Below, in pieces: positions 4,080-57,666 of a DNA stretch of 64,000 nucleotides. The position numbers were made by a program, and so were the translations under genes. The DNA comes from Pontiella agarivorans. Lineage in GTDB: Bacteria; Verrucomicrobiota; Kiritimatiellia; Kiritimatiellales; Pontiellaceae. The notes under the pieces were generated by a model, which did no database searches, had not been told where the DNA came from, and saw only the letters and a program-made list of their open reading frames with translations. The DNA is taken from the NCBI RefSeq assembly GCF_034531395.1, contig NZ_JARVCO010000007.1, positions 124,001-188,000 of the forward strand, given 5' to 3'. Position 1 is the first letter of the stretch. Every line of letters begins with the position of its first letter.

Positions 4080-6527
4080 ATGATTTCAGATGCAGCACAA
4101 AGTAATGGGGGCGGGACCTCAAAAGAAGTATACGACCTCTTAAAAAAACATTTGATGACCAACGGAATTGTCTATCTTCCCGGGCAGACCGGGACCTATG
4201 ACGGTGCAGCGATCGAGGTGCAGGAACCGAAGCCCGTTTCATTCAAGGCCGTCACGGAGCTTGGTGATTTTGGAAAAGGCCAGGTCGCTTTTCTCTGTAC
4301 CAGCTATCACGATGAACAGATTGTTATTGTGGATCCCGGGAGTACCGGGCTGGCCGCAGATTATACTGAAAAAAAGATTCCCGTGCTCGTGCTTGAACCG
4401 GAAAGCCTGATCCCGGGAAAGCGGGGCGTCACGCGCGCCCGGTTCACGAAATTCATCACCTCCGGCAAAGGCCGCTCATGGCACAGTTTTTCGCAGCCGG
4501 AAACTCCGCCTGAAAAAATAAAGGAAGCAGAATCCGATTGGAAACCGCCGGTGCGCCACAAGCGGAACTTTGTGGAGCTGGCAGCCGAAATTGATTTTGA
4601 AAATGAACTGAATGAAGAGCAGCTCGCCGCCGTCCAGGCACCGGATGGTCCTACGTTGGTGATTGCCGCCGCCGGTACCGGAAAAACACGCACGCTGATT
4701 TACCGTCTGGCCTACCTCGCCACACAGAAACGGGTTCATCCCGATCATGTACTGTTGTTGACGTTCACGAATAAAGCCGCGCGGGAAATGCTGGAACGCA
4801 CCCACCAATTGGTCGGAAATCAGTTCGGCAGTTATGACAGCGGAACCTTTCACTCTTTTGCCAACCGGGTTCTGCGGGCCGGTGCCAACCGCATCGGATT
4901 CGGCCGCGATTTTACGATTCTGGATTCGGATGATGCCAAAAAGCTGATGCGTACGTGTATTGATGATATCGGCGTGTCTAAAAAACATTTTCCGAAACCG
5001 GAAGTGCTGTTGAGCTTATTCGGCGTGGTGAGCGGCCGCATGGGAGATCTTAATGCGGCGATTGACGAGGAGTTCGAATATTCCGACGTCGAGGCCGATG
5101 ATGTCATTAAAGCACACAATCTGTATCAGCAGAAAAAAAAGGCATCCAATGCCATGGATTTCGATGACCTGCTGATCTATGCCCATAAGTTGCTACTGGA
5201 ACATGAAGATATCCGGCACCACTATCAGGAAGAATTTAAATACGTGCTGGTCGACGAGTATCAGGATACGAATGCCATTCAGGCCGAGCTGGTTCATCTG
5301 CTGGTACAGACGCATGGGAATCTCATGGTGGTCGGCGATGATTTCCAAAGCATCTATTCCTGGCGCGGTGCCGACTTCCGCAACTTCCTGGAGTTTGAAA
5401 AGACCTATCCCGGCACGCAGACCTTTAAATTGCAGACCAACTACCGCTCGACGCCGGAAATTCTGGATGTGGCCAACGAAGTGATTGCCGGGAATCCGGA
5501 GCAGTTCCAGAAAGAGCTGAAGGCGGTTCGTGAAAGCGATGTGCTGCCGAAATTGGCCAAGGTACGCGACGGATCGGTACAGGCCCGTTATGTGATTGAA
5601 AAAGCAAACGAACTGCGGCGGAAGGGGATTGCACTCTCCGATATGTGTGTGCTCTATCGCTCGCATTTCCATGCGATGGAACTGGAAATGGAACTGAACC
5701 GTGCGGGAATGGCCTATTCCCTGACCTCCGGTGTGCGCTTCTTCGAAAAAGCACACATTAAAGACGTCTGTTCCACACTCCAGCTGCTGGTCAATCCGGC
5801 CAACGAGCTGGCGTTTTCGCGCCTTGTTCAGCTTTTTCCGAAGGTTGGAGCAAAGACGGCATCGAAAATTTTCAAAAAACTTGGCGGGCGCATAAATCTG
5901 CAACGTCCGGAAGCCTGTGCGGAAGTGCTGGCGGCACTGCCCGCCGCGGCCAAAGCGGACTGGGAAAAAATACAGGATATTTTCGTGGCCTACCGCGAGG
6001 AAAATCTGGTCAACGATCCCGGGGAAATCATCTTCCGTTTCGTCAAAGCATTCTACAAAGAATACATGGTTGAAAATTTTGATAACCATAAATTCCGGCA
6101 GGAGGATATTGACGGGCTGATCGATTTCACCGTGAAGTTTGATTCCACCGAGCTGTTTCTTCAGGAAATTGCGCTGCTCACCAATATGGATGCCGAGGGC
6201 GGGAACGCTCCGGCCGAAGAGGAGCAGCGCGATGCGATCCGCTTGAGCACCGTGCATCAGGCTAAAGGGCTGGAATGGAAAGTCGTGTTTATCCTGTTCG
6301 TCAACGAGGATATGTTTCCGTCCAAGAAGTCCGTGGAGGAAAACGGCGATGCCGAAGAGCGGCGGCTTTTCTACGTTGCGGTCACCCGCGCCGAGGATGA
6401 ACTCTACATCTGCTCACCGATGGTGCGCCGTCAGCGCGACGGCGGCATGATTTTCCTCGACCCCTCGCGGTTTATTTCAGAAATCCCCGCAGATCTGCTC
6501 GAAGTGGATGGCGGTGGATTTTATTGA
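4080..6527 (+). CDS. UvrD/Rep-type superfamily 1 DNA helicase with unusual N-terminal extension
   Basis: A 3'-5' SF1A helicase, probably acting in repair or replication restart. Seen in order: Q-motif region (LNEEQLAAVQAPDGP), Walker A (AAAGTGKT, about residue 200), Walker B (VLVDEYQDTNA), motif III (VVGDDFQSIYSWRGAD), motif IV (LQTNYRST), motif V (STVHQAKGLEW) and motif VI (RRLFYVAVTRAEDELY). About 180 residues before the helicase core do not belong to the standard UvrD/PcrA layout and match nothing I recognise. The protein lacks the long C-terminal tail of UvrD. Its 3' end overlaps the convergent gene by seven bases. The start is uncertain because no clear ribosome site precedes 4080. Confidence 0.9.
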   Translation: MISDAAQSNGGGTSKEVYDLLKKHLMTNGIVYLPGQTGTYDGAAIEVQEPKPVSFKAVTELGDFGKGQVAFLCTSYHDEQIVIVDPGSTGLAADYTEKKIPVLVLEPESLIPGKRGVTRARFTKFITSGKGRSWHSFSQPETPPEKIKEAESDWKPPVRHKRNFVELAAEIDFENELNEEQLAAVQAPDGPTLVIAAAGTGKTRTLIYRLAYLATQKRVHPDHVLLLTFTNKAAREMLERTHQLVGNQFGSYDSGTFHSFANRVLRAGANRIGFGRDFTILDSDDAKKLMRTCIDDIGVSKKHFPKPEVLLSLFGVVSGRMGDLNAAIDEEFEYSDVEADDVIKAHNLYQQKKKASNAMDFDDLLIYAHKLLLEHEDIRHHYQEEFKYVLVDEYQDTNAIQAELVHLLVQTHGNLMVVGDDFQSIYSWRGADFRNFLEFEKTYPGTQTFKLQTNYRSTPEILDVANEVIAGNPEQFQKELKAVRESDVLPKLAKVRDGSVQARYVIEKANELRRKGIALSDMCVLYRSHFHAMELEMELNRAGMAYSLTSGVRFFEKAHIKDVCSTLQLLVNPANELAFSRLVQLFPKVGAKTASKIFKKLGGRINLQRPEACAEVLAALPAAAKADWEKIQDIFVAYREENLVNDPGEIIFRFVKAFYKEYMVENFDNHKFRQEDIDGLIDFTVKFDSTELFLQEIALLTNMDAEGGNAPAEEEQRDAIRLSTVHQAKGLEWKVVFILFVNEDMFPSKKSVEENGDAEERRLFYVAVTRAEDELYICSPMVRRQRDGGMIFLDPSRFISEIPADLLEVDGGGFY

Positions 6528-7477
6528 GCGAATGTAAAATCTACGATAATCGGCAGATGATCGGATCCGATGCGTTTTCCGGTCATACGGTTGTGAATCG
6601 TGATTTCTTCAGAATACAGCACGTGATCAATCGGGATTTTAAGGAAGAATCGGTCGGCCGGCCAGCTGGGTTGAAAGCCGAATCCTTTCATGCTGTTTTT
6701 CAGCCCGCTCTCTTTTTCCAGTCTTTGGAAATGCGGCGACCAGGGCGAGGTGTTCAGGTCGCCGATCAATAAAACAGGATGAGGCTGATTTTTAACAAGA
6801 TCCGGCAGAGCCCGGAGCTGAAGGTTGCGGGATTCTGAATAGGCTTTTCCAATAGGTGGAAGTGGATGGGTGCCGATAAAGGAAATTTCGCCCTGCGGGG
6901 TGTGGATCGTGGTGAGGATGGTCGGAACATCGCGTTCGCTGATCGATTTAATTTCACTTTTTGAAAGCGGCAGTTTGCTGAACAGTTTAATGCCGAAGCA
7001 GTCATCGCGCGGCTGCTCGATGTGGTGGGGATAGGCGTCATTCAGTGTCCGGAGTTCGTTGTCCCATTTGGGCGTGACCTCTTCAAGCAGTAGAATGTCC
7101 GGATCCGCATCATGAATGGCGCTCAGCACCTCATCGGTATTTCCGTTGAGTGCATTGATATTCATGAGCATCGCGCGGATCGGCTCTTTGGTTGGTGCAT
7201 CGGGTTTCCCGAAATACAAGGGCAGAACCAGCGCATAATTAATGGCGGCGAGCAGAATCATCGCCGCGCCTTTTTTATTCATCCGTTTCCAGAGATAGAT
7301 TCCAATGATTGGAAGACACAGCTGCATATATTGCACCCGGAAATGCGAAAAAAGATCGAGAAACCAATGGAGCCGGCCGAGAAAGCCGAAGACCGTTGCC
7401 GCGACGAGTCCGAGGGCAATGAAATCAATGGCGCTCGCCGGATTCAGCGACCGCTTTCGCGTCGTTTTTTCAGACAT
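6521..7477 (-). CDS. Membrane-anchored endonuclease/exonuclease/phosphatase family protein
   Basis: Three hydrophobic N-terminal helices (about residues 15-95) are followed by an EEP catalytic domain: MNINALNGN, DILLLEEV (metal-binding Glu), IGTHPLPP, LIGDLNTSPWS (Asp/Asn) and GSDHLPI (catalytic His). The layout resembles E. coli YafD-type proteins, with the catalytic domain probably outside the inner membrane. Substrate unknown; family members cleave nucleic acids, phospholipids or inositol phosphates. Its ATG overlaps the prmA stop by eight bases (ATGTCTGA), so translational coupling is likely. Two copies of the dispersed palindrome lie inside the gene, at 6714 and 6845. Confidence 0.9.
   Translation of the reverse strand: MSEKTTRKRSLNPASAIDFIALGLVAATVFGFLGRLHWFLDLFSHFRVQYMQLCLPIIGIYLWKRMNKKGAAMILLAAINYALVLPLYFGKPDAPTKEPIRAMLMNINALNGNTDEVLSAIHDADPDILLLEEVTPKWDNELRTLNDAYPHHIEQPRDDCFGIKLFSKLPLSKSEIKSISERDVPTILTTIHTPQGEISFIGTHPLPPIGKAYSESRNLQLRALPDLVKNQPHPVLLIGDLNTSPWSPHFQRLEKESGLKNSMKGFGFQPSWPADRFFLKIPIDHVLYSEEITIHNRMTGKRIGSDHLPIIVDFTFAQ
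6714..6732. repeat. Dispersed palindrome copy in the EEP gene
   Basis: TTTTCCA-GTCTT-TGGAAAT; coding strand reads FQRLE. Confidence 0.87.
6845..6863. repeat. Dispersed palindrome copy in the EEP gene
   Basis: TTTTCCA-ATAGG-TGGAAGT; centre ends in G rather than Y; coding strand reads PPIGK. Confidence 0.7.
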
Positions 7478-8333: not shown

Positions 8334-9971
8334 TTATTCTTTCAAATGCCGGCGCTGCCGCGCCATGGCAATAAACGGTTTTACTTCGGTTGTGTCACGT
8401 TTTTCAAATCCGAATTTTTTCAGGAATCCGGGGACGTCGGGACGATTTCCGCGCTGGTAGTCGTTCCACAGCGCCTCGGCCACATCTTTTTCAGCAAGAC
8501 CTTTTTCCTGTGTTAAAAATTCCAGCAGCAGTTTGGCCAGCCGGATAACATGCAGATTCCCGGTGGTATTTGTTTTGGCGTAAAGCCAGTCGGAAAAATG
8601 CATGAAGTCGGCGAAAGGGGAGTTCCCGTTTGACGGCAGCAGGCGGGCCGCCTGCGGTACGGGGGTTTCGGGCTGGGCGGAGGACTGCGGTGCATTCGGG
8701 GCTGTATCGCAGGCGGCCCGCCTGCCTGCCGTCCAGAGGAGGGGAGCCGTTTCGATAAACTGTCCGTTGTTGACGACGAGGTTCCAGTAGCGGGCGAAGC
8801 GGTTGAGGCGCTGCATGTTTTTGAAGGAAACCGAACGGGTGCTGAGGATGTCGTAGGGGGCGTGGGGGCTGTAGACCATATTCCAGTCTTTGGAATGGCG
8901 GTCAATCGGTGCTCCGCGGAGCCGTTTGAGAATGCCGAGCTGGATTTCCTGCGGGTTCAGAGCGAGCAGGCGGCTGAACCCGTGTTCGAAACTTTCGAGA
9001 TCTTCGCCGGGCAGTCCGGCAATGAGGTCGGAATGAATATGCACGCCGGTTTCGGTACGCAGGCGGCGCATGTTGTTTTCTATTTTTTCGATATCGAGCG
9101 GGCGCTGGATTCGATGGGCAACCGCTTCATTAAAGGTCTGGATGCCGATTTCAAACTGGAGCATGCCGGGCGGGCAGTCTTTGACGGCGTCCATGAGTTC
9201 ATCCGGCAGGTGGGAGGGAATGATTTCAAAGTGCAGCATCATGCCGGGCTGATAGCGGGTCTTGAAAAAATCGAGGACTTTGAGGGCAAAGCGGATATCG
9301 ATGTTGAACGAGCGGTCGACAAATTTAAAATTCAGCGCTCCACGGTCGAGCAGTTTGCCGAAGGCTGAAAACAGTTTTTCTTCGGGGAAATAGCGGACAC
9401 AGGGATCGAGCGACGACATGCAGTATTCGCATTGAAACGGACAACCGCGCGAGGCTTCCACATAGATGGCCCGGTGTTTGATGTCTTCATCGGAATAGAG
9501 ATCGTAAGGCAGTTCAATCTTTGAAACATCCACAGGTTCAGCCTGTATGATTTCATTACGGGGCGGGCTGGCCGCCTGTCTGCCTAGCAGTTCGCGACAG
9601 AGTTTCGGGAGTTCGATTTCGCCCTCGCCGCAGATGACGTGATCTGCATACCGGAAAATTTCCTGCTGTTCGGTTTCGTAGGAAATTTCGGGGCCGCCGA
9701 GAATGAGTTGGATGTCCGGGCGGATGGCTTTGAGCAGGGCGGCGACTTTGGTGACGAGGTCGATGTTCCAGATGTAGCAGCCGATGCCGATGATTTCCGG
9801 GTCGTGTGCGAGGATCTTTTCGACGGCGATGCGGGGCTGCACCTGAAGATCAAATTCAAGGAGTTCGGAACGGGGTTTCAGATCGCCCATATTGGCAAGC
9901 AGATAACGTGCTCCGAAGGCCGTATGGGCGTAGCGGGCATTAAAGGCGACAAAAAGGATCTCGTTTAACAT
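8334..9971 (-). CDS. B12-binding-domain radical SAM protein (DUF4080 type)
   Basis: A 545-residue protein with an N-terminal cobalamin-binding-like Rossmann domain (LFVAFNARYAHTAFGARYLL, IGIGCYIWNIDLV, LILGGPEISYE) and a radical SAM core with the cluster motif CPFQCEYC (about residue 175). The C-terminal DUF4080 region is present. Substrate unknown; members modify tRNA, lipids or small molecules. First gene of the operon with prmA and the EEP gene. Near residue 420 there is a low-complexity Ala/Pro-rich insert of about 35 residues bounded by two GC-rich palindromes (8639-8660 and 8709-8725). A dispersed palindrome copy lies at 8879, read as SKDW. Confidence 0.9.
   Translation of the reverse strand: MLNEILFVAFNARYAHTAFGARYLLANMGDLKPRSELLEFDLQVQPRIAVEKILAHDPEIIGIGCYIWNIDLVTKVAALLKAIRPDIQLILGGPEISYETEQQEIFRYADHVICGEGEIELPKLCRELLGRQAASPPRNEIIQAEPVDVSKIELPYDLYSDEDIKHRAIYVEASRGCPFQCEYCMSSLDPCVRYFPEEKLFSAFGKLLDRGALNFKFVDRSFNIDIRFALKVLDFFKTRYQPGMMLHFEIIPSHLPDELMDAVKDCPPGMLQFEIGIQTFNEAVAHRIQRPLDIEKIENNMRRLRTETGVHIHSDLIAGLPGEDLESFEHGFSRLLALNPQEIQLGILKRLRGAPIDRHSKDWNMVYSPHAPYDILSTRSVSFKNMQRLNRFARYWNLVVNNGQFIETAPLLWTAGRRAACDTAPNAPQSSAQPETPVPQAARLLPSNGNSPFADFMHFSDWLYAKTNTTGNLHVIRLAKLLLEFLTQEKGLAEKDVAEALWNDYQRGNRPDVPGFLKKFGFEKRDTTEVKPFIAMARQRRHLKE
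8639..8660. repeat. GC-rich palindrome, first copy
   Basis: 22 bases, identical in reverse complement to 29087-29108. Core GCAGGCGGGCCGCCTGC. In-frame in the DUF4080 gene. Confidence 0.85.
8709..8725. repeat. GC-rich palindrome, second copy in the same gene
   Basis: GCAGGCGGCCCGCCTGC, 70 bases from the copy at 8639; the two bound the low-complexity insert. Confidence 0.8.
8879..8897. repeat. Dispersed palindrome copy in the DUF4080 gene
   Basis: TATTCCA-GTCTT-TGGAATG, same centre as the copy at 6714; coding strand reads SKDW. Confidence 0.85.
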
Positions 9972-10655: not shown

Positions 10656-11753
10656 ATGCTAATCGAGACAATGATCGCTTTGAATAAAACCATACGGCTG
10701 TTTCTGGACAGCATCGGCCGGCGGGATGAGTATGAGTTCTATCTCAACAAGTTCCAGTCCGGGCCAACCGACTGTTTTGCGCTGCTGTGTCCGGATGCGG
10801 GCAGTATTGAAGCCGGTGCGGAAGTGCTGGCTTTTGATCTCCATTTTCTGCTGCGGCTCGAACTGGTTCCCGCCATTCTGCTGGCGGGGGATGAGGCGAT
10901 GACGATGCAGCAGACGCTGGCGAAGGAGCCGATTTTTATTTTCCAGACCCTGGAAAAAGGCACGACAGCTTCGTTTATTGAACATGCCCGTGCTCAGGAA
11001 CGCGTGCCGGTACTGGTGGCGGCAGGACAGAGCCTGGAAGAGGCGCTGCTGCAGCTGCTGCCCGAAACGGCGCAGCGGGTTCACTTTATCCGTGCCGCGG
11101 GGGGGCTGAAAAATACCGCCGGCGAACTGGTGCCTTATGTCTACACCCACAAGGAAAATTTCCAGGCTCTGGAAGCGCTTCCCTTTGATTATCCGGCACT
11201 TGGGAAAAAACTGCTGGAGACGCGCCCGGGGGTTCATCTTTCAATCACTTCGCCGATTAATCTGCTGGAGGAGATTTTTACGGTCAAAGGGGCGGGTACG
11301 CTGTTTCGAAAGGGGTCGGAAATCCTGCATTTCCAGGGGTTGGAAGATGCCGACCGCGGGCGGTTGCTGGAGCTGCTCGAAACGGCATTCGGTAAAAAAC
11401 TCGCGGGGACGGATTTTCTGGATAATGTGGCACATGCCTATATTGAGCAGGATTATCGCGGGGCCGTTCTGCTGGAGGAACATCCGGCGGGACTGTATCT
11501 CTCTAAATTTGCCGTTGGAAAAGAGGCGCGGGGTGAAGGGCTGGCGCTGGAACTCTGGCGCGAGGTTCATGAAACGCACAATGCTCTGTTCTGGCGGTCG
11601 AATGTAAATAATCCGTTTAACTCATGGTATCACAAAGAGTCGAACGGTCATCATCATGCCGGAAAATGGCAGATCTACTGGCGCGGCGTTGATCCGTCTG
11701 ATATTTCGGGGATTATTGAATACTGCAGTGCCCGCGGCGAAGATTTCTGTTAG
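10656..11753 (+). CDS. Vertebrate-type N-acetylglutamate synthase-like protein (AAK plus NAT domain)
   Basis: Likely makes N-acetylglutamate, the first step of arginine synthesis. The C-terminal about 150 residues match the NAT domain (PF04768) of vertebrate and fungal NAGS and of Xanthomonas-type NAGS-kinase: GEGLALELWREV, LFWRSNVNNPFNSWYHKESNG, KWQIYWRGV. The N-terminal about 200 residues look like a diverged amino-acid-kinase domain (PAILLAGD, VLVAAGQS). This differs from the E. coli ArgA acetyltransferase domain. The start is unclear: TTG 10635, ATG 10656 and ATG 10671 are all in frame, none with a good ribosome site. No other arginine genes are in the window. Three dispersed palindromes sit inside the gene, read as FQTLE, FQALE and FQGLE. 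Confidence 0.75.
   Translation: MLIETMIALNKTIRLFLDSIGRRDEYEFYLNKFQSGPTDCFALLCPDAGSIEAGAEVLAFDLHFLLRLELVPAILLAGDEAMTMQQTLAKEPIFIFQTLEKGTTASFIEHARAQERVPVLVAAGQSLEEALLQLLPETAQRVHFIRAAGGLKNTAGELVPYVYTHKENFQALEALPFDYPALGKKLLETRPGVHLSITSPINLLEEIFTVKGAGTLFRKGSEILHFQGLEDADRGRLLELLETAFGKKLAGTDFLDNVAHAYIEQDYRGAVLLEEHPAGLYLSKFAVGKEARGEGLALELWREVHETHNALFWRSNVNNPFNSWYHKESNGHHHAGKWQIYWRGVDPSDISGIIEYCSARGEDFC
10939..10957. repeat. Dispersed palindrome copy in the NAGS-like gene
   Basis: TTTTCCA-GACCC-TGGAAAA, read FQTLEK. Confidence 0.92.
11158..11176. repeat. Dispersed palindrome copy in the NAGS-like gene
   Basis: ATTTCCA-GGCTC-TGGAAGC, read FQALE. Confidence 0.87.
11329..11347. repeat. Dispersed palindrome copy in the NAGS-like gene
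   Basis: ATTTCCA-GGGGT-TGGAAGA, read FQGLE. Confidence 0.86.
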
Positions 11754-16197: not shown

Positions 16198-16216
16198 TTT
16201 TCCAAGGCCTGGAATA
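16198..16216. repeat. Dispersed palindrome copy (intergenic)
   Basis: TTTTCCA-AGGCC-TGGAATA between ppnP and the DUF429-like gene, the first of four copies within 590 bases. Confidence 0.85.
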
Positions 16217-16298: not shown

Positions 16299-16949
16299 AT
16301 GAAAAATATATTCATAGGCATAGATGTTCAGGTGAGCCGTCCCTGCGTATTTGTGGCGATCGATGCGTCGGGCTCGATGGTCGATTCGGGATGGTTTAAA
16401 ACGCCGCGCGAAATTTTCCAGACTCTGGAAAATCTGGGGCATACGGCAGCTCTTCACCTGGGCATCGATGCATCGCGCGTTCCGCTTTCCGGGCCCCGGA
16501 CGTGGTACTGGAACGGCGCGAAAAAACAGTGGCGGGGAAAAACGGAAAAAGACAAGGGGCTCGGCCGGCACTGCGAGGTGGTGATTAAGGCGCATAATCT
16601 GGCCAATCCCCAGTGGACCCCGCAGCGGAAGGATGCGCCGGCCTGGATGCAGCTGGGTTTTGACCTTTTCCAGAGCCTGGAAGCCTTCGGAGCAACGTAT
16701 GAAGCGTTTCCTTCGGCGGCATACACTCAGCTTCATGAAGATCCGTCCGTCAGAATAACCATTAATTTTTCCAAGGTCTGGAAACGGGGGACGGGGGATC
16801 TTTTTGACGCCATGGCGGCGGCGGTTACCGTGCGCGAATTTGTGGAGGGACGCGGCAGCGAAGTGGGCGGCGGCGACGGGCTCGGAAGCATTATTCTGCC
16901 TCGCCCGCTGGTTAATCCGATTGAAGCGGTTCTGCGGTGGCCGGATTAA
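16299..16949 (+). CDS. DUF429-like predicted RNase H-fold protein
   Basis: Resembles the DUF429 family, predicted RNase H-like nucleases of unknown role: an N-terminal acidic strand (FIGIDVQVSRPCVFVAIDA), a GIDASRVPL segment, AFPSAAYTQL and a C-terminal DLFDAMAAAVTVREFVEGRG followed by VGGGDGLGSIILP. Start placed at the second Met (MKNIFIGID, GAAAGG just upstream); ATG 16284 is also possible. It carries three dispersed palindromes in 370 bases, read in two different codon phases (FQTLE, FQSLE and SKVWK), which is the densest cluster in the window. A different RNase H-fold assignment cannot be excluded. Confidence 0.65.
   Translation: MKNIFIGIDVQVSRPCVFVAIDASGSMVDSGWFKTPREIFQTLENLGHTAALHLGIDASRVPLSGPRTWYWNGAKKQWRGKTEKDKGLGRHCEVVIKAHNLANPQWTPQRKDAPAWMQLGFDLFQSLEAFGATYEAFPSAAYTQLHEDPSVRITINFSKVWKRGTGDLFDAMAAAVTVREFVEGRGSEVGGGDGLGSIILPRPLVNPIEAVLRWPD
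16414..16432. repeat. Dispersed palindrome copy in DUF429-like gene
   Basis: TTTTCCA-GACTC-TGGAAAA. Arms are perfect and the pairing extends into the centre (TTTTCCAGA with TCTGGAAAA). Encodes FQTLE. Confidence 0.9.
16666..16684. repeat. Dispersed palindrome copy in DUF429-like gene
   Basis: TTTTCCA-GAGCC-TGGAAGC, encoding FQSLE. Confidence 0.88.
16767..16785. repeat. Dispersed palindrome copy in DUF429-like gene, second codon phase
   Basis: TTTTCCA-AGGTC-TGGAAAC. Here the same DNA is read as FSKVWK, a different phase from the two upstream copies in this gene. Confidence 0.9.
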
Positions 16950-20500: not shown

Positions 20501-21712
20501 ATGTCCGGACAGTTGCAGGATACAGGATTCTTATTGCAGAACCTCATGGAACACATGACGGATAATATTTATTTTAAGGATCGGGAGTCCCGGTTCATCA
20601 TGGTCAATAAGTCTTTCTGCGACTGGACGGGGCTTTCCAACGAGGCGGTTATTGGAAAAACCGACTTCGATCTTTTCGCCTCTGCGCATGCCCAGCAGGC
20701 CTACGACGACGAGCAGCGCATCATTGCCACCGGGGAGCCGATTATCGGTATTGAGGAAAAGGAGACGTGGGAAGACGGGCGCATCACCTGGGTTTCTTCC
20801 ACCAAAATGCCGTTGAAAAGTGCCGAAGGCGAAATTATCGGGACCTTCGGTATTTCACGGGATATTACCGAGCACAAAGAAGCAGAGCTTCGTGCGGCAT
20901 ACTATGCCGAGCAGATTCGCCGCATTAAGGAAGAGATGGAAGAGGACGTCCGCATGGCGGCCGAACTGCAGAAAACTTTTTTCCCGCGCACCTATCCGGT
21001 CTATCCGCCCGGCGCTGCACCCGGTCACCGCAGATTTGAATTTCTTCATCACTACAACGCCAGCGGCGGAGTCAGCGGCGATTTCTGTACGATTCAGGAA
21101 TTGAGCGATTCAAAAGTGGGTATTTTTCTGTGCGATGTCATGGGGCATGGGGTACGGGCGGCTTTGGTGACCGCTCTGATCTGCGCATTGGTCGAGGAAA
21201 CGGCTCCGGTTGAGTCGGATCCCGGCCGCTTTCTCAGCAGGATGAACAGTTTGTTGCTGCCGATTCTGCGGCAGGAGGATATTTTCCTCTATGCCACGGC
21301 GTGCTACATGGTGCTCGATATGGAAACCGGCCTGTTGCAGTTTGCCAATGCCGGGCATCCTGTACCGTTTCATTTCCAGGCATTGGAAAAACGGGCGGTC
21401 TGGCTGATGGATGATCCCGCTCAGCGGGGTCCCGCACTGGCCATTGCCGAAGGGATGCAGTTCCAGACTCTGGAACGGCAGGTGGCTGAAGAAGACAGGG
21501 TGGTCATGTATACCGACGGCCTTTATGAAGTCATTGGAGACGACGGCGAAGAGCTGGGCGAAGAACGCCTGCTGGCCGCAGCCTCCAGACAGGCCGGAAA
21601 AGATCTGCCGGATCTGTTCTCCGGACTGCTTGAAGAGGTCCGCTGCTTTGCTGCTGACGGGAAATTTGACGACGATATCTGTTTGGCGGGCTTCCGCCGT
21701 CGGGCTTTATAG
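20501..21712 (+). CDS. PAS domain-SpoIIE (PP2C-type) serine phosphatase, copy 1
   Basis: Likely a sensor phosphatase in a partner-switching pathway. An N-terminal PAS domain (MTDNIYFKDRESRFIMVNKSFCDWTGLS to GTFGISRDITEHKEAE) leads through a short coiled coil (RRIKEEMEEDVRMAAELQKTFFPRTYP) to a SpoIIE domain with GDFC, CDVMGHGVRAAL, FANAGHPVPF, MYTDGLYE and DDDICL. The metal-binding acidic residues are in place. The start is ATG 20501 with GGGGAG about ten bases upstream; the in-frame TTG 20492 is less likely. A close paralogue follows eight bases later. Two dispersed palindromes (21372, 21459) are here and not in the paralogue. No anti-sigma or STAS partner is nearby. Confidence 0.93.
   Translation: MSGQLQDTGFLLQNLMEHMTDNIYFKDRESRFIMVNKSFCDWTGLSNEAVIGKTDFDLFASAHAQQAYDDEQRIIATGEPIIGIEEKETWEDGRITWVSSTKMPLKSAEGEIIGTFGISRDITEHKEAELRAAYYAEQIRRIKEEMEEDVRMAAELQKTFFPRTYPVYPPGAAPGHRRFEFLHHYNASGGVSGDFCTIQELSDSKVGIFLCDVMGHGVRAALVTALICALVEETAPVESDPGRFLSRMNSLLLPILRQEDIFLYATACYMVLDMETGLLQFANAGHPVPFHFQALEKRAVWLMDDPAQRGPALAIAEGMQFQTLERQVAEEDRVVMYTDGLYEVIGDDGEELGEERLLAAASRQAGKDLPDLFSGLLEEVRCFAADGKFDDDICLAGFRRRAL
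21372..21390. repeat. Dispersed palindrome copy in PAS-SpoIIE copy 1
   Basis: ATTTCCA-GGCAT-TGGAAAA, read FQALEK. Confidence 0.88.
21459..21477. repeat. Dispersed palindrome copy in PAS-SpoIIE copy 1
   Basis: AGTTCCA-GACTC-TGGAACG, read FQTLER; the paralogue has YPVVER at this place. Confidence 0.88.
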
Positions 21713-21720
21713 GTTCACCC

Positions 21721-22929
21721 ATGCCGCTGAAAGAAGAAGAATACGGGGATCTGCTTGAAAACCTGATGGTGAACAATACGGATGTCATCTACTTCAAGGA
21801 TCTCCAGTCCCGCTTCATCAAGATCAATGAAGCCTGCGCACACAAACACGGATTTCTTTCTGCGGATGAAATTGTCGGGAAAACGGATTTCGACCTGTGG
21901 TCGGAAGAACATGCACGTCAGGCCTTCGAGCGCGAACAGCGCATTATCGCCACCGGTATACCACAGAACTCATTCGAAGAACGGGAAGTCTGGCCGGATG
22001 GACGGATCACCTGGGTATCCTCCACCAAAATGCCGTTGCGCGACGGAGAAGGAAACATTATCGGTACCTTTGGCGTTTCGCGTGATATCACGTTGCGCAA
22101 AGAGGCCGAGCTCCGAATTCGTCAATATGCCGAAGACCTCAAAAACATGACTGATGAGCTGGAAGAGGACGTCCGTATGGCCGGCAAGCTTCAGAAAAGT
22201 TTTTTCACCGGCGGCTATCCCATTTTTACCAATGAAAATGGAAACTGCATCGAGTTTATGCATCGCTTTGTGCTCAACCGGCAGATCACCGGCGACTACT
22301 GCGCATTTTTTAGGATTTCCGATACGCAGGCCGGAATATTTATCTGCGATATCAATGGATCGGGCATTCGCGCCGCGCTTGGAACGGCGCTGATCCGCGG
22401 CCTGATTCAGGAGCTCAGCATCTGTGCCGATGATCCCGGAAAATTTCTCCAGCGCATGAATAATCTGCTCCGTCCGTTGCTCACTGTTGAAGAACTTTCT
22501 CTCGGGGCCACGGCTTGCTATATGGCTGTTGATCTTAAAAGCGGATTGGTTCGGCTGGCCAATGCCGGTCATCCCATGCCGATCTATTTCCGTCAGGAAT
22601 ATTCGGCATCCTGGTTTTCCGAGGAAAACGGTATCATCGGTAAGCCGCTGGCGCTTGAGCCCGATGTTGAATATCCCGTGGTTGAACGGAGCATCGAGCC
22701 CGGTGACACTGTGATCGCCTTCACCGACGGACTTTATACCGTCCGGAACCGGATGGACGACGAATACGGTCTCAAGCGCCTGCTTGATTCGGCACACAGT
22801 TGGGCCGGTGAGCCACTCGAAGATGTCTTCGACGGACTCGAAGGCGATGTGCACGCCTTTGCCGGTACGGGAAAATATACCGACGATGTCTGCCTGATCG
22901 GGTTCAAACTCAAACAGCTGCTGGATTAA
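21721..22929 (+). CDS. PAS domain-SpoIIE phosphatase, copy 2
   Basis: Tandem paralogue of the preceding gene with the same layout: PAS (NTDVIYFKDLQSRFIKINEACAHKHGFLS to GTFGVSRDITLRKEAE), coiled coil with VRMAGKLQKSFFTGGYP, and SpoIIE domain with GDYC, CDINGSGIRAAL, LANAGHPMPIYF, FTDGLYT and TDDVCL. The usual DVxGHG motif is DINGSG here, so its His is lost while the metal-binding Asp remains; activity may differ from copy 1. The two PAS domains differ most in the ligand-facing middle, which suggests two inputs to one output. Same operon as copy 1. Confidence 0.93.
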   Translation: MPLKEEEYGDLLENLMVNNTDVIYFKDLQSRFIKINEACAHKHGFLSADEIVGKTDFDLWSEEHARQAFEREQRIIATGIPQNSFEEREVWPDGRITWVSSTKMPLRDGEGNIIGTFGVSRDITLRKEAELRIRQYAEDLKNMTDELEEDVRMAGKLQKSFFTGGYPIFTNENGNCIEFMHRFVLNRQITGDYCAFFRISDTQAGIFICDINGSGIRAALGTALIRGLIQELSICADDPGKFLQRMNNLLRPLLTVEELSLGATACYMAVDLKSGLVRLANAGHPMPIYFRQEYSASWFSEENGIIGKPLALEPDVEYPVVERSIEPGDTVIAFTDGLYTVRNRMDDEYGLKRLLDSAHSWAGEPLEDVFDGLEGDVHAFAGTGKYTDDVCLIGFKLKQLLD

Positions 22930-26946: not shown

Positions 26947-27184
26947 CGGTTAAAATTTTATCTTATTTCCGGCCTTTTTCTTATGTCGGTTCCGGGAGTT
27001 GGGAATTCACATATAAATGGTTAAAGAAAAGCCAGTTAAAATGAATTTCCTGTTTTTTCCTTATTTCCGGCCTTTTTTTCCTTAAGCGTTCTGAATGAAT
27101 AGAAATTCATGCATAACCCGCTGAAAAACAGTCGGTTAAAATGAATTTCCTGTTTTTTCCTTATTTCAGCCCTTTTTTCCTTAA
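26947..27184. repeat. Three imperfect tandem repeats between res and the AlbA_2 gene
   Basis: Units begin at 26947, 27033 and 27133. Units 2 and 3 lie exactly 100 bases apart and share 33 identical bases (27035-27067 and 27135-27167), then a near-identical pyrimidine run ending CCTTAA at 27085 and 27184. Unit 1 is shorter and more diverged but keeps GGTTAAAAT and TTATTTCCGGCC. Unit 3 includes the stop codon of the upstream gene, and unit 2 carries a degenerate copy of that gene's last codons. On the transcribed strand the units are purine-rich with repeated GGAAA. Confidence 0.85.
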
Positions 27185-28829: not shown

Positions 28830-30473
28830 CTAAACCTCAATCGCATACGGGGTCTGTTTGAACACAATGTTTTCGCGCTGGAGCGCCGCCGGGCCGAGGC
28901 GCGTGGCGGCCGCATAAATCGTTTTCGGGCCATCGTACGGCGGTAAAGAATCCAAAACCGCCTTCGTCAGAATATTTCCGCCCTGCGGCCGGCGATCGCC
29001 CAGAATGCCGTTGAACAACAGGTAGATGGCCCGGTTTTCGTGTATTCCAAGCCTTGGAGATTCTTCGATTTTGCCGGCATCCTGCCGTACCGCAGGCGGC
29101 CCGCCTGCCCCGTCCCTGCCGCGGCCGGTTTCTGAAAACCAGACAAAATCGGCGAGCTGGGTAAAGGTGACATCGTCGCGGATATCGCCGAACTCATTAA
29201 ACAGCGGCTCATCGCTCAATCGGCAAAACTGGAAGCCGCTTCCAAGGCCTGGAACGTCGTTGCCTTTGGCATCGGTATAACCTGCTGCCACGCGCCTCAC
29301 CCGTTCCGCTGTAATATTTGCCGCAATCTGCTCCTCCATCTCCACCAATATAAACTTCCGGTTTCCGCCGTCCGCCGCATTCTGCTTCAGCACCGCGTGA
29401 CCCGTCGTCCCCGATCCCGCAAAGCTGTCGAGTATGATCGAATCTTTGTCGCTCGCAATCTGCAGAATCCGCTGAATCAAACGCGTGGGTTTGGGGGTGA
29501 TGAAAACGTCATCGGATCCAGCGAAGGAGAGCACCTCAAGCAAATCTCTTTTTGCTTCCTGAGTATGGCCAACATCATCATAAAACCATAGACTCATTGG
29601 TACCACGCCATCTTGCACTTCATTTAAGAAGATTTTTGGGGCAGGAACATTATTACCATCTTTGCCCCACCAAATTCTGCCATCACGATCAAGCTCCCAA
29701 AATTTTTCCTCTGATACTCGCCAATACGAACCAGAAGGCGGTCCATCAATAACACGACCGGAAGGACATTTTATAGAGTACGTACCTTTACTATAATAAT
29801 TTCGAGCGGCGAGATTGTTTGGCCTCCAAAGTCCTCTCGGATCATTATCATAATTTTTGTAATTTTTATTCTGTTTTTCTGAGCGCGGAATTAGGTTCCG
29901 TCCCCAATTGCCGATTCCTTTGTAGACAACAATGTAGTCATGAGCTTCTGAAAAATGCTTGGCAGAAGCTTTTGGCGCATAGTTTTTTTGCCAAATAATG
30001 GTTTCTACAAAATTCTTCTTCCCGAAAATCTCATCCATCAGTAGCCGTAGCGACGCGACTTCGTTGTCGTCGATGGAGACAAAGATTGCGCCGTCGTCGG
30101 AGAGGAACTGTTTGAGTAGGACGAGGCGCGGATACATCATGCAGAGCCATTTGTCGTGGCGGGAGAGGTCTTCGGCTTCTTTGCCGACGGTCTGGCCGAG
30201 CCAGCGGTTGATTTCGGGGGAGTTGACTTTGTCGTTATAGATCCAGCCTTCGTTGCCGGTGTTGTAGGGCGGGTCGATATAGATGCATTTGACGCGTCCG
30301 GCATATTTCGGCAGCAGGGCTTTGAGGGCGTGCAGATTGTCGCCCTGCACAATCAGATTTCCGTCGGATTCGTCGCCGTGCGACAGGGCGGCGTCGGGTT
30401 CCAATAGTCGGAATTCCACCTCTTTGTGGTGGCGGATTACGGCGTCTTTTCCAATCCAGTCGAGCGTGGGCAT
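28830..30473 (-). CDS. mod: Type III DNA methyltransferase (Mod), N6-adenine
   Basis: Methylates adenine in the system's recognition site and gives Res its specificity. Beta-class order: catalytic motif IV DPPY (residues 67-70, CIYIDPPYNTGNEGW) comes before SAM-binding motif I (ILDSFAGSGTTGHAVL). The segment between, about 29540-29990, is the target-recognition domain; it is visibly AT-richer than both flanks. The start is ATG 30473 with AAGGAG four bases upstream. Near the C-terminus an in-frame insert (GAGGPPAVRQDAG) is encoded by a GC-rich palindrome that also occurs in the radical SAM gene at 8639. Two dispersed palindromes lie nearby (29043, 29238). No frameshift or simple repeat suggesting phase variation was seen. 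Confidence 0.9.
   Translation of the reverse strand: MPTLDWIGKDAVIRHHKEVEFRLLEPDAALSHGDESDGNLIVQGDNLHALKALLPKYAGRVKCIYIDPPYNTGNEGWIYNDKVNSPEINRWLGQTVGKEAEDLSRHDKWLCMMYPRLVLLKQFLSDDGAIFVSIDDNEVASLRLLMDEIFGKKNFVETIIWQKNYAPKASAKHFSEAHDYIVVYKGIGNWGRNLIPRSEKQNKNYKNYDNDPRGLWRPNNLAARNYYSKGTYSIKCPSGRVIDGPPSGSYWRVSEEKFWELDRDGRIWWGKDGNNVPAPKIFLNEVQDGVVPMSLWFYDDVGHTQEAKRDLLEVLSFAGSDDVFITPKPTRLIQRILQIASDKDSIILDSFAGSGTTGHAVLKQNAADGGNRKFILVEMEEQIAANITAERVRRVAAGYTDAKGNDVPGLGSGFQFCRLSDEPLFNEFGDIRDDVTFTQLADFVWFSETGRGRDGAGGPPAVRQDAGKIEESPRLGIHENRAIYLLFNGILGDRRPQGGNILTKAVLDSLPPYDGPKTIYAAATRLGPAALQRENIVFKQTPYAIEV
29043..29061. repeat. Dispersed palindrome, one mismatch, in mod
   Basis: TATTCCA-AGCCT-TGGAGAT, 26 bases from the GC-rich palindrome at 29087. 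Confidence 0.6.
29087..29108. repeat. GC-rich palindrome in mod
   Basis: Matches the 8639 copy over all 22 bases in the other orientation; encodes part of GAGGPPAVR. Confidence 0.88.
29238..29256. repeat. Dispersed palindrome copy in mod
   Basis: GCTTCCA-AGGCC-TGGAACG; coding strand reads PGLGS. Confidence 0.82.
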
Positions 30474-30520: not shown

Positions 30521-30539
30521 TCTTCCAGAGGTTGGAAGG
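30521..30539. repeat. Dispersed palindrome copy (intergenic)
   Basis: TCTTCCA-GAGGT-TGGAAGG between nrdG and mod, downstream of nrdG and upstream of mod. Confidence 0.8.
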
Positions 30540-30602: not shown

Positions 30603-31298
30603 TCACGCCCCGCGCAGGAGTATTTCGTCGGCGCATCCGGCCATCCGGTCTTTGAGTTCCTGGAGGCGGGAGGAGGGGGTGCGGGGGAGGACGGTGAATT
30701 TTTTGTCGGGCAGGTTGTCGCGCGGAATAAAAGCCTGAAGAGCCATACGTTTGGAGCCGGCGATGACATCGGCGACTTCGTCCATCAGGGCATCGGTGTG
30801 TAAAGATTCGATGACGGTGGTGCGGAATTCGTAATCTTTGGCTTCGGCTTTGATGAGTTCAATGGATTCGCTGATTTTTCCAAGGTCTGGAAAGTGTACC
30901 AGTTTGCGATACCCCGAAAGACCGGTTTTGACATCCATTGCCACGTAATCCACCAGAGGCAGCACCTCGCGCAGTTTTCCGGGGTTGGAACCGTTGGTGT
31001 CGAGTTTGACCGCAAAGCCATATTTTTTCATGAGTTCGATCAGTTGCGGAAGATCGTCGGCCAAGGTGGGTTCGCCGCCGGTAATGACGGCTCCGTTGAC
31101 CCAGTTGTGTTTAAATTTTGTGCAGGCGAGTTCGAGGGCCTCCTGGTCGATGCCGGAACGTTTTCGGCCCATGAGCGAAGCGTTGTGGCAGAAGCCGCAT
31201 CTGAAGTTACAGCCGCTGGTGAAAAAAACCGCGGAGAATTTTCCGGGGAAATCTACCATAGAGGGTTTTTCGAGGTAGGCATATACCGATGAAGTCAT
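30603..31298 (-). CDS. nrdG: Anaerobic ribonucleotide reductase activating protein
   Basis: Radical SAM enzyme that installs the glycyl radical on NrdD. Cluster Cys residues are C30, C34 and C37 (SGCNFRCGFCHN). Other motifs: ITGGEPTL (SAM binding) and LDTNGSNP. At 231 residues it is longer than E. coli NrdG (about 154) and resembles the longer pyruvate-formate-lyase-activase-like type. It is the last gene of the nrdD-thioredoxin-fold-nrdG run. A dispersed palindrome at 30876 is read here as FPDLGK. Confidence 0.92.
   Translation of the reverse strand: MTSSVYAYLEKPSMVDFPGKFSAVFFTSGCNFRCGFCHNASLMGRKRSGIDQEALELACTKFKHNWVNGAVITGGEPTLADDLPQLIELMKKYGFAVKLDTNGSNPGKLREVLPLVDYVAMDVKTGLSGYRKLVHFPDLGKISESIELIKAEAKDYEFRTTVIESLHTDALMDEVADVIAGSKRMALQAFIPRDNLPDKKFTVLPRTPSSRLQELKDRMAGCADEILLRGA
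30876..30894. repeat. Dispersed palindrome copy in nrdG
   Basis: TTTTCCA-AGGTC-TGGAAAG; on the coding strand it gives PDLGK, the third codon phase. Confidence 0.88.
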
Positions 31299-40233: not shown

Positions 40234-42897
40234 ATGACATCCAATGAAATCCGCCAATCGTTTTTTGATTTTTTTGAATCGAAACAGCACACGGTCGTAA
40301 AATCCGCCAGTCTTCTGCCGGATGCGCCGAACCTGCTGTTCACCAATGCCGGGATGAACCAGTTTGTTCCAATTTTTCTCGGGCAGCAGAAGTGCCCCTA
40401 TACACCCGGCCGCGCCGCCGACACGCAGAAATGTATCCGTGCCGGGGGCAAGCACAATGACCTCGACGATGTCGGGCTCGATACGTATCACCACACCTTT
40501 TTCGAAATGCTGGGCAACTGGTCGTTCGGGGACTATTTCAAGCAGGAGGCTATCGACTGGTCGTTTGAGCTGATCACCAAGGTCTGGGGATTTCCGGCGG
40601 AGCGGGTTTATGCGACCTATTTCGGCGGCGACGAGAAATCAGAAGCCGATCTGGAAGCAAAGGAAATGTGGCTGAAGCTGCTTCCGCCGGAGCGTGTGGT
40701 GCCGGGTAATCGCAAAGATAATTTCTGGATGATGGGTGACACCGGTCCGTGCGGTCCGTGCTCGGAGCTGCACGTCGATCTGACACCGAACGGCGATTGC
40801 GGGGCGGAGATGGTGAATGCCGACAGCGCCGACTGTATTGAAATCTGGAATCTGGTTTTCATTCAGTTTAATGCCAACCCCGACGGCACCTTTACGCCGT
40901 TGCCGGCGCAGCATGTGGATACCGGTATGGGGTTCGAACGCGCCTGCTCGATTATCCAGTGCACCAAAAACTTCACCGATTTTTCCGGCGTCATCTCCAA
41001 CTATGAAACCGATGTCTTTACACCGATTTTCCAGACCCTGGAAAAAATGAGCGGAAAATCCTATACCAGCACGCTTCCGAAAGACCCTGCGAAACAGACC
41101 GAGCAGGAGGCGGTTGATGTGGCGTTCCGCGTGATTGCCGACCACATCCGCTGCCTGTCGTTCTCGATTGCCGACGGCATCATTCCCTCCAATGAAGGCC
41201 GAGGTTATGTCCTGCGCCGCATTCTGCGCCGTGCCGTGCGCTACGGCCGTACGCTCGGATTCACGGAGCCCTTCTTCTTTAAGCTGGCGGACACGGTCGT
41301 TGAGCATTTCGGCGGGGCCTTTCCGGAGCTGGTCAACAACCGCGGCCGCGTGAGCAAAACGCTGAAGGCGGAAGAGGAATCGTTCAACCGCACGCTGGAT
41401 AAAGGCATGGAGGTTTTTGATTCGATTCTGGGCAGCACCAAATCGAAGACGATTGACGGCGCGGATGTATTCAAGCTCTACGACACCTATGGATTCCCGT
41501 ATGACCTGACGGAGCTGATGGCGCGCGAAAAGGGCATGCATATTGATGAGGACGGTTTTGAGCGCCTGATGAATGAACAGCGCGAGAAAGCCCGGGCCGA
41601 CCACGCCGCGAAAAAATCGGTGGTGATGGCGTCGGACAAAACACTGGATGTGGATGAAACGCCGTTCCTTGGATATGAAATGACGCAGCTTCAGACCGAA
41701 GTGGCGGAGGTGCTTGACAACAATACGCTGATTCTGAAAGAGACCCCGTTTTATGCCGAGTCCGGGGGGCAGCAGGGCGATCACGGTGAAATCAAAGGAA
41801 ACGGGTTCGGCTTTAAAGTAACCGATACGCAGAAGACGCCGGAGGGCATTATTGTGCACAAGGGTGAGCTGGTATACGGCGCACCGATGAAAGGGGTTCC
41901 TGTGATTGCAGCAGTTGACCGCTTCCGCCGCGGGCAGATGCGGCGGAATCACACTGCGACGCATTTGCTGAACGCGGCGCTGCGTCAGATTGTTGATCCG
42001 AACATCAAACAGGCTGGATCGCTGGTGGCGAATACCTATCTGCGTTTTGATTTTAATCATTTTGAAGCGCTCAACTCGCAGCAGATTCGCCAGATTGAGC
42101 AGATGGTGAATCATGAAATTATGAAAAACACCGAACTTCAGACTGCGGAAATGGAGTTGGCTGATGTGCAGAATTCAACGGATATTCAGGCGGTGTTCGA
42201 TGATAAATACGGTGATGTGGTTCGTGTGGTTTCCATCGGGGAAACCAGTAAAGAACTCTGTGGCGGAACCCATGTTCAGATGACCGGCGATATCGGCCAG
42301 TTCCGTATTGTTTCCGAATCGTCCGTGGCGTCGGGAATCCGACGGATCGAAGCGGTGACCGGTCTCGATGCGCTGAATTGGGCGGCGGAGGAACATGCTC
42401 TGCTGAGCGGTCTGAGTCAGAGCCTGAGTGTAAAACCGCAGGAACTGCCGGAGCGGATTAAGTCTATGGCCGACCAGATTAAGGCGGCGGAAAAACAGCT
42501 GAAAGAACTGCAGACCAAAGCGGCCGTGGCCAATGTCGATGGTCTTGTGGATAAAGTGCAGGAAAGCAGCGGCGTGAAAATACTGGCGGCTGAACTCGGC
42601 GAAATGCCGATGGATGCGTTGCGTCAGGTACTTGACGGTCTGCGCCAGAAAATTGAGAGCGCCGTCATTGTGATCGGTTCCTCCAATGAAGGAAAGGCCT
42701 GTCTTGCAGCCAGCGTCTCCGAAGATCTGGTGGCGAAGGGTATTCACGCCGGCAAGCTGATCGGGCAGATTGCGAAAATCTGCGGCGGCGGGGGCGGCGG
42801 CAAGCCCGATAAAGCCCAGGCCGGCGGGAAAGACGCTTCCAAAATCGGTGAGGCCATTCAGGCGGTTGCCGGCGTGGTCGATAAAATGGCCGGCTGA
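40234..42897 (+). CDS. alaS: Alanyl-tRNA synthetase
   Basis: Charges tRNA-Ala. 887 residues with the full layout: class II catalytic core (SFFDFFESKQHTVVKSASLLP, FTNAGMNQF, HTFFEMLGNWSFGDYFK), tRNA-binding helices, an editing domain with zinc-binding HTATH and CGGTH, and a Gly-rich C-Ala domain (CGGGGGGKPDKAQAGG). AGGGA precedes the ATG. An exact dispersed palindrome at 41027 encodes FQTLE in the catalytic half. A terminator follows. Confidence 0.97.
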   Translation: MTSNEIRQSFFDFFESKQHTVVKSASLLPDAPNLLFTNAGMNQFVPIFLGQQKCPYTPGRAADTQKCIRAGGKHNDLDDVGLDTYHHTFFEMLGNWSFGDYFKQEAIDWSFELITKVWGFPAERVYATYFGGDEKSEADLEAKEMWLKLLPPERVVPGNRKDNFWMMGDTGPCGPCSELHVDLTPNGDCGAEMVNADSADCIEIWNLVFIQFNANPDGTFTPLPAQHVDTGMGFERACSIIQCTKNFTDFSGVISNYETDVFTPIFQTLEKMSGKSYTSTLPKDPAKQTEQEAVDVAFRVIADHIRCLSFSIADGIIPSNEGRGYVLRRILRRAVRYGRTLGFTEPFFFKLADTVVEHFGGAFPELVNNRGRVSKTLKAEEESFNRTLDKGMEVFDSILGSTKSKTIDGADVFKLYDTYGFPYDLTELMAREKGMHIDEDGFERLMNEQREKARADHAAKKSVVMASDKTLDVDETPFLGYEMTQLQTEVAEVLDNNTLILKETPFYAESGGQQGDHGEIKGNGFGFKVTDTQKTPEGIIVHKGELVYGAPMKGVPVIAAVDRFRRGQMRRNHTATHLLNAALRQIVDPNIKQAGSLVANTYLRFDFNHFEALNSQQIRQIEQMVNHEIMKNTELQTAEMELADVQNSTDIQAVFDDKYGDVVRVVSIGETSKELCGGTHVQMTGDIGQFRIVSESSVASGIRRIEAVTGLDALNWAAEEHALLSGLSQSLSVKPQELPERIKSMADQIKAAEKQLKELQTKAAVANVDGLVDKVQESSGVKILAAELGEMPMDALRQVLDGLRQKIESAVIVIGSSNEGKACLAASVSEDLVAKGIHAGKLIGQIAKICGGGGGGKPDKAQAGGKDASKIGEAIQAVAGVVDKMAG
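41027..41045. repeat. Dispersed palindrome copy in alaS
   Basis: TTTTCCA-GACCC-TGGAAAA, the same sequence over all 19 bases as the copy at 10939 in the NAGS-like gene. Encodes FQTLEK in both. Confidence 0.92.
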
Positions 42898-42971: not shown

Positions 42972-43682
42972 ATGGGATTAGATGTTAACCATACACAGAA
43001 ACGGATCCTGATTGTTGAGGATGAGCAGGCGATTGCGGATAATATTGCTTTTGCCGTCGAGACCGAGCACATGGAAGCGGTGTATGCGCCCACGGCCGGG
43101 GAAGCGGAACAGCGGCTTGCTGAAGGGGCTGTCGATCTGATCGTGCTGGATGTCGGGCTGCCCGATGAAAGCGGTTTTGACTTTTGCCGGCGTATTCGTG
43201 GGCGGAGTGATGTGCCGATCATTTTTCTGACGGCGCGTGAATCGGAGATTGACCGTATTGTCGGGCTTGAACTCGGGGCCGATGATTATATGTCGAAGCC
43301 GTTCAGTCCGCGGGAGCTGACCGCCCGGATACGGGCGATTCTGCGCCGCAGCGGCAATGCGGTTCCAGGGGATGGAAGAGGAAAACCGGAGCCGCTGTTT
43401 TCCGTAGACCAGAAAACAAAAACCATCTTTTACAGAGGCGCAGCGCTGAATCTTTCACGCTATGAGTTCCGCATGCTGGAGCTGATGATCCGTCATCCGG
43501 GCCAGGTCTTTTCGCGCGATCAACTGATGAATCATGCCTGGGAGGAGCCAGACGCGAGTTATGACCGGACAGTGGATACGCACATAAAAACACTGCGTTC
43601 CAAACTGCGGAATGTGGACCCGGTGTGCGACTGCCTGCAGACGCGTCGCGGTTTCGGCTATTGCCTGAGGGTCGATGTATGA
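42972..43682 (+). CDS. creB: CreB-like response regulator
   Basis: OmpR/PhoB-class response regulator: receiver with VEDE (acidic pocket), phospho-acceptor Asp in IVLDVGLPDESG, Thr in FLTARE and Lys in MSKPFS; C-terminal winged helix (LNLSRYEFRMLELMIRHPGQVFSRDQLM, DRTVDTHIKTLRSKL, RGFGYCL). Called CreB because it is followed by creC-like and creD genes and a matching binding tag precedes creD. The start is ATG 42972; GTG 42957 is possible. It overlaps creC by ATGA. A dispersed palindrome at 43361 lies in the linker, read as PGDGR. Confidence 0.88.
   Translation: MGLDVNHTQKRILIVEDEQAIADNIAFAVETEHMEAVYAPTAGEAEQRLAEGAVDLIVLDVGLPDESGFDFCRRIRGRSDVPIIFLTARESEIDRIVGLELGADDYMSKPFSPRELTARIRAILRRSGNAVPGDGRGKPEPLFSVDQKTKTIFYRGAALNLSRYEFRMLELMIRHPGQVFSRDQLMNHAWEEPDASYDRTVDTHIKTLRSKLRNVDPVCDCLQTRRGFGYCLRVDV
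43361..43379. repeat. Dispersed palindrome copy in creB linker
   Basis: GGTTCCA-GGGGA-TGGAAGA. Arms TTCCA/TGGAA exact; the centre does not follow R-N3-Y. Confidence 0.7.
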
Positions 43683-45125: not shown

Positions 45126-45144
45126 GATTCCAACCTCTGGAAAC
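45126..45144. repeat. Dispersed palindrome copy in the creD leader
   Basis: GATTCCA-ACCTC-TGGAAAC, between the cre-tag and the creD ribosome site. Confidence 0.82.
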
Positions 45145-54809: not shown

Positions 54810-54828
54810 TTTTCCAAGGGTTGGAAAT
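54810..54828. repeat. Dispersed palindrome filling a convergent gap
   Basis: TTTTCCA-AGGGT-TGGAAAT lies between the peroxiredoxin stop (54806-54808) and the apt stop (54829-54831), leaving one spare base. Flanks extend the pairing (AGATTT/AAATCT). Confidence 0.9.
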
Positions 54829-56519: not shown

Positions 56520-56538
56520 GTTTCCAATCTGTGGAAAA
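56520..56538. repeat. Dispersed palindrome over the rsgA ribosome-binding region
   Basis: GTTTCCA-ATCTG-TGGAAAA, ending three bases before ATG 56542. Its right arm forms part of the AAAAGGG ribosome site. Confidence 0.78.
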
Positions 56539-57636: not shown

Positions 57637-57666
57637 TTGGGAATACAGATTGAAAATGCGGGAATG

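Follow-up and report, generated by a model that had tools for sequence, protein, structure and literature searches.

A palindromic motif dispersed through the genome of Pontiella agarivorans: origin by base substitution in a PAS–SpoIIE phosphatase gene and probable role as a protein-binding site

Tandem phosphatase genes and the palindromic motif

The window, i.e. the entire stretch of 64,000 nucleotides of the genome of the marine bacterium P. agarivorans that was analysed, carries two adjacent genes for PAS–SpoIIE phosphatases, hereafter copy 1 and copy 2, which match Pfam PF07228 and PF08448 (Table 1). Copy 1 contains two instances of a 15-base palindrome, TTCCAN5TGGAA, with the extended form (T)TTCCA-RNSNY-TGGAA(A). 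Both had been recognized in the initial annotation, with starts (21372 and 21459) that lie 2 bp early; the residues quoted there for the two copies were correct, the copy-2 counterpart of site 2 being ungapped and that of site 1 one residue shorter. Copy 2 of P. agarivorans has zero exact motifs. Since the counterpart of its near-site at 22828-22842 is a perfect motif in the copy-2 orthologues of B1224, B12227, B12219, L009 and L013, the picture of a motif present in copy 1 and lacking in copy 2 is a strain-specific snapshot.

Table 1. Genes, motif sites and related positions in the window
Feature	Position	Strand	Description
Copy 1	20501..21712	+	PAS (PAS_4) + SpoIIE/PP2C-type phosphatase, 403 aa; orthologues throughout Pontiellaceae
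Copy 2	21721..22929	+	Tandem paralogue, PAS + SpoIIE, 402 aa; duplication old, lineage separated from that of copy 1 with 100/100 support
Motif site 1	21374..21388	.	TTCCAGGCATTGGAA, in frame in copy 1 as FQALE
Motif site 2	21461..21475	.	TTCCAGACTCTGGAA, in frame in copy 1 as FQTLE
Copy-2 counterpart of site 1	22588..22599	+	TTCCGTCAGGAA, one codon shorter
Copy-2 counterpart of site 2	22672..22686	+	TATCCCGTGGTTGAA, ungapped, 4 arm mismatches
Copy-2 near-site	22828..22842	+	TTCGACGGACTCGAA, 2 mismatches
Motif copy	5667..5681	.	TTCCATGCGATGGAA; arms identical in B12227
Motif copy	6716..6730	.	Exact match
Motif copy	6847..6861	.	Exact match
Motif copy	7300..7314	.	Exact match
Motif copy	8881..8895	.	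Exact match
Motif copy	10941..10955	.	Arms identical in B12227
Motif copy	11160..11174	.	Arms identical in B12227
Motif copy	11331..11345	.	Arms identical in B12227
Motif copy	16200..16214	.	Exact match
Motif copy	16416..16430	.	Arms identical in B12227
Motif copy	16668..16682	.	Arms identical in B12227
Motif copy	16769..16783	.	Among few sites with gapped orthologues
Motif copy	29240..29254	.	Exact match
Motif copy	30523..30537	.	Exact match
Motif copy	30878..30892	.	Exact match
Motif copy	41029..41043	.	Arms identical in B12227
Motif copy	43363..43377	.	Exact match
Motif copy	45128..45142	.	Exact match
Motif copy	49351..49365	.	Exact match; included in orthologue comparison
Motif copy	54812..54826	.	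Exact match
Motif copy	56522..56536	.	Exact match

Sites 1 and 2 belong to a much larger set. Altogether 23 exact copies were found in the window, versus 0.06 ± 0.24 in shuffled sequence, and the P. agarivorans genome (4,436,865 bp in 12 contigs) contains 1146, versus 5 for the reversed pattern. The spacing is strict: 464 kb of this genome gave 116 arm pairs at spacing 5 and no more than 5 at each alternative spacing between 0 and 15. Most of these 116 sites are coding (81, with 35 non-coding), as are 179 of the 228 sites in B12227. All three reading frames are in use (38/24/25). In Pontiella and Tichowtungia the motif occurs within genes too, yet it is 3–4 times denser between them. The intergenic sites displayed no firm preference among convergent, divergent and tandem gaps, for which reason a role as terminator or promoter element was dropped. 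A search for the motif string in one literature library gave no hits. Phage origin was also discarded as an explanation; the whole of IMG/VR contains 116 stretches with the motif and, among the matches listed, all but one are single-site.

The make-up of the motif gives some indication of how it is read. Its excess is limited to the classes with 0 and 1 mismatch, the commonest near-matches having C at position 11 or G at position 5. Matches with one base wrong in the outer TT/AA are roughly as scarce as those with one wrong at an inner position, so that the outer bases belong to what is kept. Positions 6 and 10, at the edges of the spacer, are purine and pyrimidine, respectively, in about 87% of sites, without pairing (AC 27, GT 27, AT 24, GC 23). 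This favours contacts on the double helix over a hairpin; formation of a hairpin in RNA or single-stranded DNA was dropped on this ground.

The window harbors other repeated sequences as well. Two diverged 92-nt direct repeats lie at 27004-27195, 100 nt from start to start, and a partial third copy lies shortly before them (26956-26979). A 24-nt GC-rich inverted repeat, GCAGGCGGGCCGCCTGCGGTACGG, at 8639-8725 recurs 20 kb away at 29084-29109 with 100% complementarity, and the 9-mer GCCCGGTCA forms a perfect tandem array at 57666-57710.

Origin of the sites in copy 1

Public genomes supplied orthologues of both genes, which were codon-aligned, and a protein tree was built without the motif columns. 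The tree splits the copy-1 and copy-2 lineages 100/100, both being present throughout Pontiellaceae. The one-residue gap at site 1 occurs in all 15 sampled rows of the copy-2 lineage, and is therefore an old difference between the paralogues, uninformative on the motif. The initial annotation had taken the comparison of the two copies as evidence for replacement, an argument that is not supported: the paralogues separated deep in the family, long before the motif, so that comparing them does not show replacement, and copy 1 versus copy 2 was given up as an evolutionary pair.

That the motif came about by replacement and not by insertion is nevertheless supported at both sites by the orthologues of copy 1. 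These have the same length at both sites, with no clear indel, the sole gap being one placed at site 1 by an automatic pairwise alignment to a distant P. desulfatans paralogue (62% identity). The site-1 sequence is TTCCAAGCCGCGGAA in the orthologue from P. sulfatireligans and TTCCAGAAGGCGGAA and TTCCAGGGACAGGAA in two further relatives, each one arm base off the motif, and TTTCAAGCGGCGGAA, two off, in the P. desulfatans MAG; the site is perfect in B1224 and B12219, and has one mismatch in B12227 (TTCCAGGCTTCGGAA). Site 2 is perfect only in P. agarivorans, B1224, B12219 and B12227, and the nearest outsider, the P. desulfatans MAG, is one base off (TACCAAACGCTGGAA). The spacer retains the older codon in both cases, Ala GCN at site 1 and Thr ACN at site 2. 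Judged from extant relatives and counts of state changes, with gain versus loss resting on nesting rather than on a rooted reconstruction, site 2 requires one change, on the stem of the clade in which it is perfect, and site 1 three changes on the tree, which take in the exact site of L013, acquired independently, and the one-base variant in B12227.

It is well supported that both copy-1 sites arose by one or two base substitutions in sequence that was already close. Stepwise point substitution suffices at both, gene conversion or templating not being needed. Among the processes offered in the initial annotation, substitution is the one that stands, with outsiders one or two steps off, and gene conversion or a templated change is not supported, since the older spacer codon was kept and the arms of orthologues lacking the motif already resemble it. 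A simple transposed hairpin, against which it also argued, is contradicted at both sites by the absence of clear indels; the orthologues revealed neither an insertion with a compensating deletion nor a motif ancestral to both copies.

Conservation, distribution and helical phasing

In order to follow conservation, 48 motif sites of four motif-rich Pontiella genomes were compared with their orthologues, using syntenic stretches of five related genomes together with the copy-1 loci. Within the motif-rich clade the arms are identical in 47/67 cases versus 102/1340 for control stretches of the same genes, and the spacer diverges more than the control (1.82 versus 1.37 of 5). In the comparisons with motif-poor genomes, which are not independent, the copy-1/copy-2 genes supplying 118 of the 140, the spacer value was 2.54 versus 1.82 for the control, and the arms mismatched at a mean of 3.3 of 10 positions, where about 7.5 would be expected for a block superimposed on unrelated sequence. 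Gaps inside the site numbered 4/140 versus 31/2800 in the control, and with 18 nt included on either side they were not in excess (4/140 versus 98/2800). Third bases of codons for an amino acid conserved in the clade are identical in 160/175 instances in the arms (TTC 38/38, GAA 37/37, TCC 16/16 and GGT 9/9), where those codons at other places in these genes predict 109.8, and in 43/88 in the spacer, versus 51.7 expected. Since all three frames are used, no protein feature accounts for the conservation of the arms. Selection acts on the arms at the DNA level, and the spacer drifts.

Not all sites are equally conserved. Outside the two phosphatase genes, sites in frame 1 show lower conservation (2/12) and more divergence, and there are sites, for the most part in frame 1, at which 5–8 of 10 arm positions differ from the orthologues without gaps; a larger replacement may have taken place at the latter. 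Given these frame-1 sites, substitution is established for copy-1 sites 1 and 2 and is the simplest reading elsewhere.

The motif is patchy within Kiritimatiellae and hardly present in other classes of the phylum. Even within one genus, copy numbers range from 5 to 2297 per genome, which opens gain and loss to natural comparison within a single class. Two genomes of the window's genus (G004 and G019) have 20 copies each in 4.3 and 3.0 Mb, an apparent loss within the genus; an alternative dialect of the motif was considered for them, and no other spaced palindrome stands out in their sampled DNA. Two observations on more distant genomes may be recorded here. A genome of another family of the phylum (G096, family f28) has 55 matches to the control pattern AAGGTN5ACCTT and 0 to the motif, possibly reflecting an unrelated repeat family, and in a genome of the same class (G150, family f17) the ComEC match contains 3 in-frame TAG and the Y1 transposase match 1, which could indicate a TAG reassignment.

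In several relatives neighbouring sites are helically phased. Distances between neighbours in a Tichowtungiaceae genome (G028) are 22, 31/32, 42, 53, 63, 73/74, 82-84, 115, 126, 135 and 145/146 bp, approximating whole helical turns, except for a single distance of 29. Over the range from 22 to 146 bp the phasing at 10.5 bp reaches R = 0.88 (p <= 5e-5), and R = 0.85 when the 31/32 pairs are left out; the sequences between phased sites are unrelated. The sites are spread chromosome-wide in this genome, unevenly, three of twenty 20-kb samples being without any, and a Ter- or ori-restricted site was dropped because their concentration does not follow GC skew. The same phasing was seen in other genomes of family f2, in family f5, where 60/62 sites are intergenic, and in the two arrays read from family f11. 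Phasing was not seen in the two most deeply sampled Pontiella genomes, one of them the window's own (G000, 9 pairs; G017, 28 pairs, R = 0.25, p = 0.17); the sites of P. agarivorans and B12227 are mostly solitary. The argument from phasing is therefore borrowed from the relatives.

Interpretation and comparison with known systems

Dyad symmetry, fixed spacing and spacer preferences that do not involve pairing are features of an oligomeric binding site, and the motif has them all. We consider it probable that the motif is a genome-wide binding site for a putative DNA-binding protein of Kiritimatiellae that acts as a dimer, and that its sites are acquired through substitution and then maintained by selection. 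A protein is the likely reader of the motif, and its role would be in chromosome organisation rather than in local regulation. New sites would arise from one or a few substitutions where the sequence is already near the motif, after which the arms would be held by DNA-level selection and the five-base spacer would drift, the motif being read as double-stranded DNA by the putative dimer; site 2 would then have been gained on the stem of the four-species Pontiella clade, and site 1 there and once elsewhere. More tentatively, and with somewhat less than even confidence, we envisage a chromosome-organising system of Kiritimatiellae in which a predicted protein would occupy hundreds to thousands of TTTCCARNSNYTGGAAA sites, with helically phased arrays in several families, tightly enough for selection to write and keep sites through coding sequence by point mutation.

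Two alternatives concern the way in which the sites were acquired. A mobile or transposed hairpin, either REP/RAYT-like or a small inserted palindrome, would be in line with the outcome of a PF01797 profile search of 56 Kiritimatiellae genomes, where all motif-rich genomes tested had Y1 transposase genes and the 9 genomes lacking such genes were all motif-poor. However, many Y1-carrying genomes are without the motif (G053 has 21 Y1 matches and 18 sites), there are no clear indels at copy-1 sites 1 and 2, gaps do not exceed those of control stretches once 18 nt on either side of the sites are counted, and the spacer-edge positions are unpaired, which leaves this explanation the slenderest of chances. 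Copying of whole motif units between sites, by gene conversion or templating, could produce the ungapped sites at which 5–8 of 10 arm positions differ, but the older spacer codon was kept at sites 1 and 2, with outsiders one or two steps away, and the excess divergence of the spacer is similar for motif–motif pairs and for pairs with motif-poor genomes, so that there is no block signature; we attach very little probability to it.

The other two alternatives concern function. A DNA uptake signal, i.e. a motif favoured by a competence receptor and propagated by uptake-biased recombination (molecular drive) as for the DUS of Neisseria or the USS of Haemophilus, would share its mode of origin with the motif, as DUS and USS evolve gradually by point mutation in existing sequence and not by insertion (PMC1939737). 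The abundance is similar, as is the mix of coding and intergenic sites, with its greater density between genes; the excess is limited to 0 and 1 mismatch, and ComEC was found in 54/56 genomes. Yet ComEC is equally present in motif-free genomes, and the competence gene profile was dropped as an explanation because, being nearly universal, it does not discriminate. The motif is moreover a perfect dyad, in contrast to known DUS and to DUES, neither of which is palindromic (PMC1939737), and the phasing and intergenic arrays of the relatives would be unexpected for an uptake tag. On balance we regard an uptake signal as unlikely. Decidedly improbable is a HIP1-like situation, in which a methylase would read CCAN5TGG and the enlarged palindrome would be favoured by methylation-linked repair or selection. 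CCAN5TGG, the PflMI/Van91I target, does sit inside the motif. HIP1 too encloses methylase sites (PMC4390886). Against this, the outer TT/AA are kept about as strictly as the inner bases, mismatches being similarly rare at both, and phased spacing is not predicted.

To our knowledge, few bacterial genomes contain a short oligonucleotide iterated a thousand times, and the classes that have been studied (DUS, Chi, HIP1 and KOPS) have each led to a genome-wide machine or are suspected of doing so. If the motif is indeed a binding site, helical phasing in the relatives would make the binding protein directly testable in cultured strains.

Among known systems, the motif resembles REP/BIME sequences with their RAYT transposases in being a dispersed palindrome that is denser between genes. 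Unlike these, it is not confined to extragenic positions but lies in genes in all frames, and it bears no mark of spread by insertion, the two copy-1 sites having no clear indel and the sampled genes no excess of nearby gaps; its spacer edge is unpaired. HIP1 (GCGATCGC) of cyanobacteria is likewise a palindrome iterated many times, with a patchy distribution in one large clade and an unsettled function (PMC4390886), and the motif matches it in occurring far above the expected frequency across one clade. It differs from HIP1 in being longer, interrupted and, between neighbours, helically phased. With the DUS/USS of Neisseriaceae and Pasteurellaceae it has in common that a short exact oligonucleotide is dispersed in some thousand copies, genic and intergenic, and, at copy-1 sites 1 and 2, an origin by point mutation, so that by analogy the substitution origin has a precedent in DNA uptake sequences. 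Unlike DUS, in which the core is non-palindromic, it forms a perfect dyad around a spacer fixed at 5 bases, is phased at the helical repeat in several families and does not track ComEC. The consensus of matS is GTGACRNYGTCAC. The motif is like matS/MatP in being an odd-length palindrome with an RNY-like centre, matS being read by a dimeric chromosome-organising protein. There are 23 matS copies, all within the 800-kb Ter domain (PMC3330122); unlike matS, the motif occurs in hundreds to thousands of copies, spread in the Tichowtungiaceae genome over the chromosome independently of GC skew.
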